Positions 2,105 to 5,655 of a stretch of 64,000 nt of DNA are shown piece by piece (the stretch's first letter is position 1; each line of letters begins with the position of its first letter). Below the pieces are notes generated by a model, which did not search any database, was not told the origin of the DNA, and was given only the letters and a program-made list of their open reading frames with translations. The stretch spans positions 558,001-622,000 of the forward strand of contig NZ_CP025120.1 in the NCBI RefSeq assembly GCF_002838765.1. Reading direction: 5' to 3'. A program made the position numbers and the translations under genes. Origin of the DNA: Kangiella profundi (GTDB taxonomy: Bacteria > Pseudomonadota > Gammaproteobacteria > Enterobacterales > Kangiellaceae).

Positions 2105-2156
2105 AAAGAAAATCTACTCAAACCGCATTAATTCCCTTCTGTATTCAATATGTTGC

Positions 2157-2172
2157 AATGCATTTGTGCATT
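2157..2172. promoter_or_regulatory. perfect 6-bp inverted repeat upstream of the SIR2 gene
   Basis: AATGCA-tttg-TGCATT sits ~145 bp before the SIR2-fusion start, in a 211-bp AT-rich gap. A second aatgcattt lies near 2265. A weak promoter-like pair (TTGCAA 2153-2158, 17 bp, TGTACA 2176-2181) overlaps it. It could be an operator, but chance is possible in AT-rich DNA. Confidence 0.25.
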
Positions 2173-2315
2173 AAATGTACAGTTGTAAAAAAATGTGACG
2201 TGGTATACATTGTTTTGTGCGAATTTAGGTGAGTTCATTTAGCTAAATTGAAGAGAGAATAAACCAATGCATTTAATGTGATTATATGGAATAGATATAA
2301 ACTAATAGGACAATC

Positions 2316-5300
2316 ATGACAAAGAGTATAAATAAAGAAGAGTTTCCTGCCTATATAAAGCAACAAATTGAAAAAGGTAATGCGATTTTATTTCTCGGCT
2401 CTGGCTTTAGTTTTGGAGCTATGTGTCCGAATGGAAATACGCCCCCATCAGGAGAACAGCTAAGGGATGAGTTATGTGATGAATATCTAGATGGGGAGAT
2501 GAAGGATAAGCCGTTAACAACAGTTGCAAATTATGCAAAGAATGAAAGTAGTCGAAGGGTTGTAGAGCAGTTCATCAAAGACCGGCTAATACATCTAGTT
2601 CCACAATCTTATCATTGTGCAATTTCAAACTTCAAATGGCACTCTATATTCACTACAAATTATGATTTAGTTTTAGAAAATGCATACTCTGGAAATCAAC
2701 AAAGACAGCAGCAGTTATCTCCAATCTTATCCGACGAACAAAGCTTTAGTGAAATAATAAAAGATAAAGAGAATGTTCCATACTTTAAATTGCACGGATG
2801 TATTACAGATATTAACTCACAGAATCCATTAATATTAACCACTGAAGAATATGCCAAATATGAAAAAAATCGAATAAAGTTATTTAGGCATTTACGTGAA
2901 AGTGCTCGAGACAGACCGATAATATTCATAGGCTATTCAATAAGCGACCCCAATATAAATTCTATCTTGTTTGATTTAACTGATAGCAATATTGAACGAC
3001 AGATGTATGTGACAGTTGACCCAGGTCTTAATATCTATGATATGAGAATGTGGTCTTCGCATAGGATACATCCTATTAAAGCTACACTTGAAGAGTTTGT
3101 TGAGTTTTTAGAAAGTGAAATAGATACTAGGAAGTATGACTTACTAACGGCATATGATGAACGAGAACATGCTGTTTACAAATACATACCTCAGGATATA
3201 AAAATAACCAATGATGCAATTGAATATATAAATACAGAATTTAAATTTATACATAGTGAAATGAAAGTTACTGGTGTCTCTCCAAAGGACTTTTACAGGG
3301 GGTTAGACAAAGGCTGGGGGGGGATACATCAAGGCTTAGATGTAGAAAGAAAGGTTTGTAATAGAATTATATCAGCATCTATAGATTTGATAGATGAAAA
3401 AAAGCCAACAGTAATATTGCTTAAGGGTTTTGCCGGAAGTGGGAAAACAATAGTTCTTAAACGTTATTCTTGGAGTATGGCTTTTGATTTTGATGAGCCT
3501 GTTTTTTATTTAAACAAAGGGGGGGTTCTTCGAGTTGATTTAATTATGGAAATTTTGGGGGCGTTTAATAGGAGAGTAATACTTGTAATTGATGATGTTT
3601 TGCACTCTTCATCTGAGTTTGTTGAGTTGATGAATGCCATTAAATCCACAAACTTGAATGTTCTGATAATAGTATCGGCCAGAAATAACGAATGGAATCA
3701 AGACGTAAATGAGTGTGATGAGTTAATTGATAATACATTTGAACTTGGAAAGTTATCAGTAAAAGTTATCCCTACATTAGTACAAAAACTTACTAAATAT
3801 AAGTGTTTTGAAGATAGTGTTTTAAATAGTTATACAGAATCGGAGTTAGTTACTCATTTTGAGGAAAAGCTTGATAAATTATTATTGGTTGCATTGCATG
3901 AAGTTACTTCGGGAAAAACCTTTGAAGAAATAATAGTTGACGAATTTAAACGTATCGTGCCTGCTCAGGCCAAAATAATTTATAAAGATATTTGTACTTT
4001 AAATAGGCTTGATGTCCCTGTTCGTGCTGGATTGATATCTCGAGTTTCAGGAGTGAAAATTGAAGATTTCAATAGAAACTTTCTGGCTCCTCTTGAGCAT
4101 GTGGTAACAGTGTTTATGGATTATTATTCTAGGGATTATGCTTACTCATCAAGACATCCGTATATTGCAGAAATTGTTTTTAATTACACTATTGAAAGTC
4201 AAGAAGAGAAATACGAGCAGATAATGAGGTTGGCTAGTAAAATGAATCTTGACTATACATCAGACAATGAAGCATTTAGGCAAATTATTGCCGGCAAGAA
4301 ACTTGCTAACATGTTCACTGATAAATCATATGCTATGGGTATCTATCAAATTTTTGAAGATATTGGTGCTGACCTTTCGCATATTAACCATCAGAAAGCC
4401 ATGTTCGAACTTCACCATATGAATGGAAATCTAAATAGCGCATTGCAATTTATTGCTGAGGCGAAGAGCCATTCTGAGTATGGAGACACTAATAAAGCTA
4501 TAAAACATACTGAGGGAACAATTTTAAGGCGTATCGCAAAGATTGAGAAAAATACTCTTTTAAAAAATAAATATAGAGAGAATGCGAAAGTCATATTTAG
4601 GGAGTTGATGTCTGGGAAGCCTAAGGACTCAAGGAGTCATGTTGGTTATTTGCGAGCATTGTTAAATGAACTAGATGACATGAAAGATATTGTAGAAAGT
4701 GTTGTTGAAGACGAAGTAATTATTGACACAGTCAAACAAGCTCAGTCTACCATTAGCAAGGCTTTACAATTGTTCCCGTCAGATCCTCATGTTTTACAGG
4801 TAGAGGCTGAATTAGAGGGGTTTTTGCAGAATTTCGATAAAGCAAAAGATCTAATAGAAAAAGCGTATTCCATCAACTCTGAAAATTCGTATGTTGCAAT
4901 TCGGCATGCAAGAAACCTTGTCAAATCAGGTGACACTGAAAGTGCCTTAAAGATTCTAAGTAATACTTTATCAAAGCAGCCTAATAATATGGCTATTAAT
5001 TTCGAAATAGCAAAGATATTGATCCAAAAAAATGATGATGGATTGTTGCCTCAAATCGAAACGTATTTAAAGCGTAGCTTTGCTAAATTTGACGGAAATT
5101 ACTTAGCTCAGTTATGGTATGCAAGGCATCAATATCTTTATGGAGATCATTCAAAAGCATATGAAATATTCTCACATTTAAAAGTTGCCAGGGTATCCTC
5201 AAGTGTGAAGAATAATGAAAAGGGGATGGTTCTTGATTCCAGCGGAGCCCCAAAAATATATAGCGGGTATATAAAACAAGACCATGGGAACTTTTACTTC

Positions 5301-5453
5301 ATTTATTCAAATGAGCTGCGTGATACAGTGTTTGCTCACCAAGACGACTTTAATGACTGCATTGATGATGATAACCTTATGAATAAGAATGTTTCGTTTC
5401 AGTTAGTTTTCACCATGAAAGGTCCTAAGGCTAAGTTTATTGATTTTATTTGA
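2316..5453 (+). CDS. SIR2 - P-loop NTPase - TPR - cold-shock-like fusion; probable antiphage NADase
   Basis: Large soluble multidomain protein of 1045 residues. Residues ~20-270 are a SIR2-like domain: GSGFS at 28-32, TTNYD at 113-117 (conserved Asn/Asp), KLHG at 158-161 with His160, and IGYSISDPN at 205-213. Residues ~345-600 hold a STAND-like NTPase: Walker A GFAGSGKT at 371-378, Walker B VILVIDDV at 421-428, sensor-like VSARNN. Helical TPR-like repeats run from ~690 to 955. Residues ~975-1045 resemble a cold-shock/OB fold (GNFYFI, DTVFAHQ, GPKAKFIDF). In known defence families SIR2 depletes NAD+ and STAND/TPR parts sense the invader; that role here is inference. The gene is visibly more AT-rich than its neighbours and ends ~125 bp from tRNA-Met, which suggests transfer. 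No partner gene is adjacent. Start ATG 2316 follows a purine-rich aggac. Avs5 is another SIR2-STAND family but lacks this C-terminus, as I recall it. Confidence 0.82.
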   Translation: MTKSINKEEFPAYIKQQIEKGNAILFLGSGFSFGAMCPNGNTPPSGEQLRDELCDEYLDGEMKDKPLTTVANYAKNESSRRVVEQFIKDRLIHLVPQSYHCAISNFKWHSIFTTNYDLVLENAYSGNQQRQQQLSPILSDEQSFSEIIKDKENVPYFKLHGCITDINSQNPLILTTEEYAKYEKNRIKLFRHLRESARDRPIIFIGYSISDPNINSILFDLTDSNIERQMYVTVDPGLNIYDMRMWSSHRIHPIKATLEEFVEFLESEIDTRKYDLLTAYDEREHAVYKYIPQDIKITNDAIEYINTEFKFIHSEMKVTGVSPKDFYRGLDKGWGGIHQGLDVERKVCNRIISASIDLIDEKKPTVILLKGFAGSGKTIVLKRYSWSMAFDFDEPVFYLNKGGVLRVDLIMEILGAFNRRVILVIDDVLHSSSEFVELMNAIKSTNLNVLIIVSARNNEWNQDVNECDELIDNTFELGKLSVKVIPTLVQKLTKYKCFEDSVLNSYTESELVTHFEEKLDKLLLVALHEVTSGKTFEEIIVDEFKRIVPAQAKIIYKDICTLNRLDVPVRAGLISRVSGVKIEDFNRNFLAPLEHVVTVFMDYYSRDYAYSSRHPYIAEIVFNYTIESQEEKYEQIMRLASKMNLDYTSDNEAFRQIIAGKKLANMFTDKSYAMGIYQIFEDIGADLSHINHQKAMFELHHMNGNLNSALQFIAEAKSHSEYGDTNKAIKHTEGTILRRIAKIEKNTLLKNKYRENAKVIFRELMSGKPKDSRSHVGYLRALLNELDDMKDIVESVVEDEVIIDTVKQAQSTISKALQLFPSDPHVLQVEAELEGFLQNFDKAKDLIEKAYSINSENSYVAIRHARNLVKSGDTESALKILSNTLSKQPNNMAINFEIAKILIQKNDDGLLPQIETYLKRSFAKFDGNYLAQLWYARHQYLYGDHSKAYEIFSHLKVARVSSSVKNNEKGMVLDSSGAPKIYSGYIKQDHGNFYFIYSNELRDTVFAHQDDFNDCIDDDNLMNKNVSFQLVFTMKGPKAKFIDFI

Positions 5454-5539
5454 TTAATTAATTGGAAATTAATGGGGTCAGGGCAAATCAAACTCACATC
5501 TTGGACTTACGGTGGACTTACAAAATCCCAGCCAACAAA
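5454..5539. other. gap with possible mobile-element scar
   Basis: Holds ggggtcagggcaaatcaa (5473-5490), which resembles the GGGGTCAG-type sequences often found near REP-associated tyrosine transposases. A tandem ggactta motif follows near 5502-5520; its second copy reads ggtggactt, a 9-mer also present in the 3' part of the adjacent tRNA-Met gene. These may be remnants of an integration event. This is suggestive only. Confidence 0.3.
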
Positions 5540-5577
5540 AAAGGCTTACAGATTTCTCTGTAAGCCTTTCTTTTTAT
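5540..5577. terminator. bidirectional intrinsic terminator
   Basis: Stem aaaggcttacag (5540-5551) / ctgtaagccttt (5558-5569) with a 6-nt loop. A T-rich tract follows on the plus strand and T6 on the minus strand. It can end both the SIR2-gene transcript and the tRNA-Met transcript. Confidence 0.85.
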
Positions 5578-5578
5578 A

Positions 5579-5655
5579 TGGTAGCTATGGGTGGACTTGA
5601 ACCACCGACCCCAGCATTATGAATGCTGTGCTCTAACCAGCTGAGCTACATAGCC
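5579..5655 (-). tRNA. tRNA-Met (CAU), elongator
   Basis: 77-nt cloverleaf on the minus strand with encoded CCA. The acceptor stem is GGCTATG / CATAGCT with one G-T pair. The D-arm is AGCTCAGCTGGTTAGAGC, the anticodon loop is TTCATAA with anticodon CAT, and the T-loop is GTTCAAGTC. The paired first base and the lack of the initiator's three G-C anticodon-stem pairs argue for the elongator. tRNA 3' ends are common integration sites; the AT-rich SIR2 gene lies on the 3' side. Confidence 0.95.

Follow-up and report, generated by a model that had tools for sequence, protein, structure and literature searches.

What does a lone gene do for Kangiella profundi when its product joins a NADase-type SIR2 domain, a STAND NTPase, a TPR array and a cold-shock-type tail (CSD) in a single chain? 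We addressed this question in a window of 64,000 nucleotides (contig NZ_CP025120.1, positions 558,001 to 622,000 of the forward strand; coordinates are those of the window), where one protein of 1045 residues is encoded exactly at the place, on the strand and with the length given by a first-pass annotation that had proposed a candidate antiphage system (Table 1). Our analysis identifies the protein as a SIR2-STAND variant whose domains follow the SAMD9 core order; it is most likely an NLR-like NADase, its activity being predicted. Effector, STAND switch and C-terminal repeats lie in one chain, as in the broad SIR2-STAND NLR-like kind. The reading that we favour, with moderate confidence, is that of a single-protein sentinel with SAMD9-core order, in which the TPR array and the CSD would sense phage, the STAND NTPase would assemble and the SIR2 domain would destroy NAD+.

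Pfam models place SIR2_2 (PF13289) at residues 110-254 (E 2.6e-23) and nSTAND_NTPase5 (PF25199) at residues 325-462 (E 3.4e-25), with TPR_19 also above its cut-off, in agreement with the SIR2, P-loop NTPase and TPR motifs located there by the first-pass annotation. Neither AlbA nor nSTAND3 (PF20720) was matched in the protein by Pfam at E <= 1; SIR2 starts at the N terminus and the NTPase is of the nSTAND5 type instead. In an alignment of 28 relatives, L003 has no tail because of an early end of its reading frame, the N terminus is missing from L093, and L017, L019 and L098 are mutually close. At E <= 0.01, nSTAND5 and SIR2_2 match 28 of these 28, TPR_19 27 and the cold-shock domain (PF00313) 13, the best at 1.2e-9, and PF20720 appears alongside nSTAND5 in five. 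An AlphaFold model built from 23 sequences has a mean pLDDT of 83.4.

The motif GSGFS lies at residues 28-32, TTNYD at 113-117 and KLHG at 158-161. Asn115, Asp117, His160, Gly374, Gly376, Lys377, Arg456 and Trp460 are invariant in all 28 sequences, and His614 is conserved in 27 aligned relatives. As far as the sequences go, the SIR2 domain is thus predicted to be of the NADase type, with the catalytic-type Asn and His kept, and the P-loop switch appears intact; both had been proposed before, with His160 and Lys377 named correctly. The nearest solved SIR2 domains belong to the defence proteins ThsA, KomC, DSR2 and EfAvs5. The KomC residue that aligns with His160 is the one altered in the deposited KomC H146N, and a DSR2 H171A mutant, not aligned residue by residue, is likewise among the deposited chains.

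The location of the gene was compared among congeners. In Kangiella, the site of the tRNA-Met beside ychF (2226-5578 in the window) is a hotspot for defence genes and integration. All 20 Kangiella genomes are matched by a tRNA-Met/ychF query; of the 19 genomes other than that of the window, 17 supplied the site (G371 and G376 were left out), and the tRNA-Met adjoins ychF in every one of the 17. PADLOC at E <= 1e-5 matched 10 of 10 proteins picked by eye from 7 of the 17 loci: AbiLi/AbiLii (L130), HerA and SIR2 (L137), Cas9 (L138), the Mod and Res proteins of type III restriction-modification (RM; L139) and HEC-06 (L141), with weaker matches to an AriA-like ATPase in L129 and to a TIR protein of the SpbK type in L144. 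Six further loci (L131, L133, L134, L135, L136 and L140) stood outside this PADLOC comparison. The L132 site holds the K. taiwanensis homologue (81%), no insert was recognised in L142, L143 or L145, and integrase-like genes were seen by eye inside the inserts of L134, L135, L136 and L144. In the window, homology with congener G374 ends at position 2225 and restarts at 5465, which defines the variable cassette in Table 1. The gene has a GC content of 34.2% against 44.1% for the window, where the remaining genes look like housekeeping genes by eye. Its low GC and its position at a site where congeners carry defence systems support a defence role. It is flanked by yedK upstream (named by eye) and by the tRNA-Met downstream, with no partner gene adjacent, as the first-pass annotation had stated.

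The family is rare and scattered. Within the class, 3 of 369 genomes have it, the K. profundi genome counted in, and within Kangiella 2 of 20. Relatives that cover most of the protein occur in K. taiwanensis, in Pseudomonas rustica (44%), on plasmids (28-38%) of Klebsiella, Vibrio, Acinetobacter, Methylobacterium and Psychrobacter, and in genomes of Bacteroidota, Planctomycetes, Tectomicrobia, Neomarinimicrobiota and others. At least 80% coverage was reached in 14 plasmid records, 9 of them Klebsiella, and in 11 of the 15 loci of one relative set the match begins no later than residue 16 and extends at least to residue 1037. No match to the window protein or to L019 was obtained in 50,697 phage genome records. 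Among 5,426 E. coli genomes, the gene of L019 matches one (84% DNA identity) and that of L015 none, in a megablast search blind to relatives as remote as the window gene. The gene is under purifying selection: against the K. taiwanensis gene, the proportion of nonsynonymous differences (pN) is 0.12 and that of synonymous differences (pS) 0.84, the latter saturated. By domain, pN is 0.106 for the CSD, 0.102 for SIR2 and 0.146 for TPR, the CSD being constrained about as strongly as SIR2. A housekeeping function, as a protein deacetylase or a gene of NAD metabolism, would fit the site shared by two Kangiella species and a divergence like that of a neighbour gene (81% for the SIR2 protein, 82% for the RhlE-like one). 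It is disfavoured by the patchy presence, together with the hotspot context and the low GC, and we consider it very improbable indeed.

Several distant relatives sit on mobile elements. L015, L018 and L019 lie in elements with an integrase and a primase (a PHROG DNA primase in L015 and L019, by eye in L018), which we read as P4-like satellites. L016 stands between a replication-initiator gene and the portal/terminase genes of a P2-like prophage, L017 adjoins an integrase and tail genes, and the relative in E. coli NZ_CP047277 is flanked by psu and the integrase. The psu-integrase slot of P4-like satellites is reported as a hotspot for antiviral systems, with defence observed for 7 of the 18 that were tested, and SIR2-STAND proteins with C-terminal repeats, SIR2 replacing TIR, are also found there (Rousset 2022, PMC9122126). 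The TIR-NLR proteins of this slot resemble the Kangiella protein as single effector-STAND-TPR chains; they differ in their TIR effector, and the available text of that source does not mention a CSD (PMC9122126). Relatives on plasmids (the 14 records) and on satellites would also suit a protein whose cell suicide keeps out plasmids or competing satellites while phages are hardly affected. However, the Kangiella site carries Cas9, RM, AbiL and HEC-06, and the P4 slot is described as an antiphage hotspot (PMC9122126), which makes such an exclusion role improbable.

The tail of the protein had been described as nucleic-acid-binding-like, and the PF00313 matches among relatives agree with this. PDB chains matched by a profile built from eight relatives, at about positions 966-1039, include CSDE1, CspA, CspB and other Csp proteins. 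In the AlphaFold model, the tail folds into five strands (981-989, 993-998, 1003-1008, 1025-1033 and 1036-1044) with a pLDDT of 86-93 in ten-residue blocks, apart from one loop block at 75. At positions 993 and 995 an aromatic residue occurs in 25 of 27 rows in each case, and position 1006 has F or Y throughout the 27 rows with a residue. The motifs FYFI and VFAH are what we take to be RNP1-like and RNP2-like sequences. The Csp/CSDE1 matches, the five modelled strands and the kept aromatics make it likely, on sequence and model, that the cold-shock-type tail binds nucleic acid, the His of column 1008 and the CSD_V match being weaker. From the fold and the aromatic residues we infer that the ligand might be single-stranded RNA or DNA made or exposed in infection; a nucleic-acid trigger for the sentinel is a tentative proposal, a little short of an even chance.

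Cold-shock domains bind RNA, and one could imagine a guard of host translation or transcription, whose CSD sits on cellular RNA until phage takeover removes or changes it and frees the NADase, with a host state, and no phage molecule, as the trigger. Of five relatives scanned with the PADLOC model CSD_V, which is linked to retrons, two have a tail that matches at E <= 0.001 (L019 at 1.5e-6, L016 at 2.8e-5), and the NCBIfam model of the retron Se72 effector weakly matches the tail of the window protein (E 0.064). These retron-type matches are short and weak for the window protein, and the guard has no direct evidence in its favour; we judge it quite unlikely.

The first-pass annotation knew of no described system with this four-part order. 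The order SIR2-NTPase-TPR-OB is nevertheless that of the published SAMD9 core, which comprises AlbA_2, SIR2-like, P-loop NTPase, TPR and cold-shock-like OB domains (Mekhedov, Makarova, Koonin 2017, PMC5445408). When residues 300-1045 were compared with the PDB by Foldseek, human SAMD9 came out on top, and ranks 1-6 of the whole model were held by EfAvs5, human SAMD9 (two entries) and an AVAST5 filament. In the VIA table for the whole model, SIR2 entries fill the 50 rows and SAMD9 is absent; for the C-terminal model its VIA Z of 14.1 is level with AAA ATPases, and its aligned length alone stands out. The comparison with SAMD9 is one of structures. Both proteins have a SIR2-like domain before the NTPase and a TPR array followed by a C-terminal cold-shock-type OB domain. 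They differ in that no AlbA/tRNase or SAM domain was found in the Kangiella protein, that its SIR2 domain keeps catalytic-type residues, and that Walker A reads GKT in its family (Lys377 in 28 of 28), whereas the SAMD9 signature is reported as GGT/S, not GKT/S (PMC5445408). The same paper stresses actinomycetes among the bacterial SAMD9 members, many of which have a kinase N terminus, and reports loss of AlbA_2 in some members of the family, whereas the family of the Kangiella protein spans Proteobacteria, Bacteroidota and other phyla. The functions of the bacterial homologues are considered harder to predict (review PMC13245274).

Avs5 is similarly close. It shares an N-terminal SIR2 (PF13289) NADase, a STAND NTPase and C-terminal repeats, and in EfAvs5, the best whole-model Foldseek match, the SIR2 and NTPase parts match the family profile. 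Avs5 is, however, described with SIR2 and nSTAND3 (PF20720; PMC12931631), whereas the Kangiella protein has nSTAND5 and an extra CSD and, at 1045 residues, exceeds the EfAvs5 chain (869) by 176. Since Avs5 was already reported to resemble SAMD9 in predicted structure (PMC12931631), the likeness to SAMD9 is not peculiar to the Kangiella family; in the models, coverage through the end of the OB domain sets this family apart from the Avs5 chains compared here. Because GGT/S, AlbA and nSTAND3 were tested and not found, we place the protein in neither the SAMD9 nor the Avs5 family.

The resemblance to Avs5 raises the possibility of a sensor for protein, in which the TPR array binds a conserved phage protein and the CSD is a structural cap or assembly contact that involves no nucleic acid. 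The inputs reported for Avs5 and DSR2 are phage proteins. Three Avs5 clades are reported to recognise the phage protein JADA; Avs5 immunity cannot do without the C-terminal repeat domain, and NAD+ hydrolysis sets in upon infection (PMC12931631). Besides the first rank of EfAvs5 in Foldseek, its VIA Z for the C-terminal model is 16.3 against 14.1 for SAMD9, and three cousins (L149-L151) with SIR2 and nSTAND5 show no CSD match, which indicates that the SIR2-nSTAND5 core can exist without a CSD. EfAvs5 nevertheless aligns just to residues 3-555 of the 746 of that model, short of the TPR end and the CSD, and 25 to 27 of the 27 relatives, which come from several phyla, retain the CSD aromatics, for which a cap would have no obvious need. 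We hold this protein-sensing alternative to be somewhat unlikely.

Other known systems resemble only part of the protein. The SIR2 domains of ThsA (Thoeris) and KomC (Kongming) are close to it in sequence and fold. KomC belongs to a multi-gene system with a small-molecule switch, and ThsA is described likewise, whereas the Kangiella switch and sensor are within one chain. The Thoeris combination of SIR2 and SLOG with a ThsB TIR partner was not found at this site. DSR2, at Foldseek ranks 7 onward, has a SIR2 NADase followed by a long helical sensor; it is not known to have a STAND NTPase or CSD, and its full-length chains align past SIR2 only at an rmsd of 13.7-20.4. The BFVD fold matches listed are mainly AAA ATPases and Sel1 or unnamed proteins. 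In a search of defence-system models, suggested with the first annotation, PADLOC models match only parts of the protein, those of ThsA only residues 1-225. No Avs5-named PADLOC model matched at E <= 1, the presence of such a model in PADLOC-DB being unconfirmed. In the open-licence PMC literature, searched outside supplementary tables, no SIR2-nSTAND5-TPR-CSD antiphage system was found.

By analogy with Avs5, ThsA and DSR2, we infer NADase activity, assembly upon activation and an abortive outcome for the favoured sentinel. The resting protein would be closed; its TPR array and cold-shock-type tail would detect an infection product; ATP-driven assembly of the STAND NTPase would switch it on; and the SIR2 domains would then hydrolyse NAD+, so that the infected cell would no longer support the phage. 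Filament formation is apparently a prerequisite for the activity of ThsA and Avs5 (FAM118 work, PMC12700824). Several observations weigh against this sentinel. The tail of the window protein itself (residues 992-1040) stays under the Pfam cut-off for CSD (E 0.12), its CSD_V match is weak (E 0.035), and the RNP2 His of column 1008 is present in just 13 of 27 rows. EfAvs5 has Asn at the position aligned with His160, which is therefore not universal among SIR2-STAND proteins. The domain arrangement is uncertain because the pTM of the model is 0.57. Two relatives, L089 and L096, lie among genes that look like housekeeping genes by eye, purifying selection with patchiness cannot separate phage defence from, for example, plasmid exclusion, and no activity measurement was found for the SIR2-nSTAND5-TPR-CSD family.

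The human gene SAMD9 acts against viruses and is linked to disease, but little is understood of its SIR2-like, NTPase and OB parts. With one bacterial gene in SAMD9-core order and intact SIR2 and P-loop residues, of a size that suits phage assays in E. coli, these parts could be tested singly. If the sentinel is confirmed, nucleic-acid sensing would join the inputs of SIR2-STAND immunity, and a simple bacterial model for SAMD9-type immunity would be available. A bolder version, which we regard as unlikely, sees in the protein a bacterial counterpart of the SAMD9 core with both enzymes intact, whose CSD would read phage or damaged nucleic acid, which P4/P2-type elements and plasmids would spread, and from the like of which the animal SAMD9 core would be derived.

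Table 1. Features of the SIR2 gene and its surroundings in the window.
Feature	Coordinates	Strand	Details
SIR2-nSTAND5-TPR-CSD gene	2316..5453	+	1045 codons and stop, intact
SIR2 NADase-type domain	2316..3125	+	residues about 1-270
Asn115, predicted catalytic	2658..2660	+	invariant 28/28; aligned with ThsA Asn (Ala in deposited chain 8bto_A)
His160, predicted catalytic	2793..2795	+	invariant 28/28; aligned with KomC His146
STAND NTPase and helical part	3282..4295	+	residues about 323-660; PF25199; outer limits by eye from model
Walker A GFAGSGKT	3426..3449	+	residues 371-378; Lys377 invariant 28/28
Walker B VILVIDDV	3576..3599	+	residues 421-428; column 426 is D in 26/28, E in 2/28
TPR superhelix	4296..5195	+	residues about 661-960; TPR_19 E 1.1e-11 and helix pairs in model
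Cold-shock-type OB domain	5250..5450	+	residues about 979-1045; PF00313 in relatives, family profile, AlphaFold strands, alignment
Noncoding block, promoter/operator-like	2156..2213	+	upstream of gene; conserved before different cassettes in congeners
Variable cassette	2226..5464	.	lies in the gap of DNA homology with congener G374 (2225 to 5465)
Terminator-like hairpin	5540..5569	+	downstream of SIR2 gene
tRNA-Met (CAT), hotspot marker	5579..5655	-	tRNA call and comparison of congener sites

Proteins with a different effector on the same core were sought in three ways, and none was found there. With residues 300-1045 as the core, 14 of 14 plasmid records were SIR2 proteins already known from the whole-protein search. 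In viruses, two strict patterns gave two loci, both on contigs already found; a viral scan with SIR2 motifs, unable to reveal swapped effectors, gave 70 loci, 8 of them full length. In 398 genomes of the phylum, the four matches were the window protein and the three cousins without a CSD match. These cousins are SIR2-nSTAND5 proteins of 818-839 residues (L149 616-3069, L150 631-3147, L151 310-2775). The KLHG motif reads ALNG in L149 and KLNG in L150, and their SIR2 domains may therefore be degenerate. On a Klebsiella plasmid, the relative L008 (8001-11018) is annotated as two genes, hence broken, beside an insertion sequence element; seven more records share this two-gene annotation, and an intact copy is present in CP043374.

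The noncoding block of ~58 bases upstream of the gene contains, in the window, the inverted repeat AATGCA-N4-TGCATT, followed by TTGnAAAAAA..TATACATT. It has a single match in each of 8 of the 20 Kangiella genomes, the eighth copy (G380) being on a different contig. The seven aligned copies (the window, L129, L132, L133, L136, L137 and L141) are at the tRNA-Met hotspot, upstream of the cassette and codirectional with it, and just two of these cassettes hold the SIR2 gene. The block resembles a promoter/operator or left border that interchangeable defence genes have in common. A promoter scan, with 14 sites against 14.9 expected in shuffles, carries no weight. At the same tRNA-Met site, the insert of L138 (2384-6781) encodes the Cas9 matched by PADLOC (1052 residues), followed by genes that look by eye like Cas1 and Cas2.

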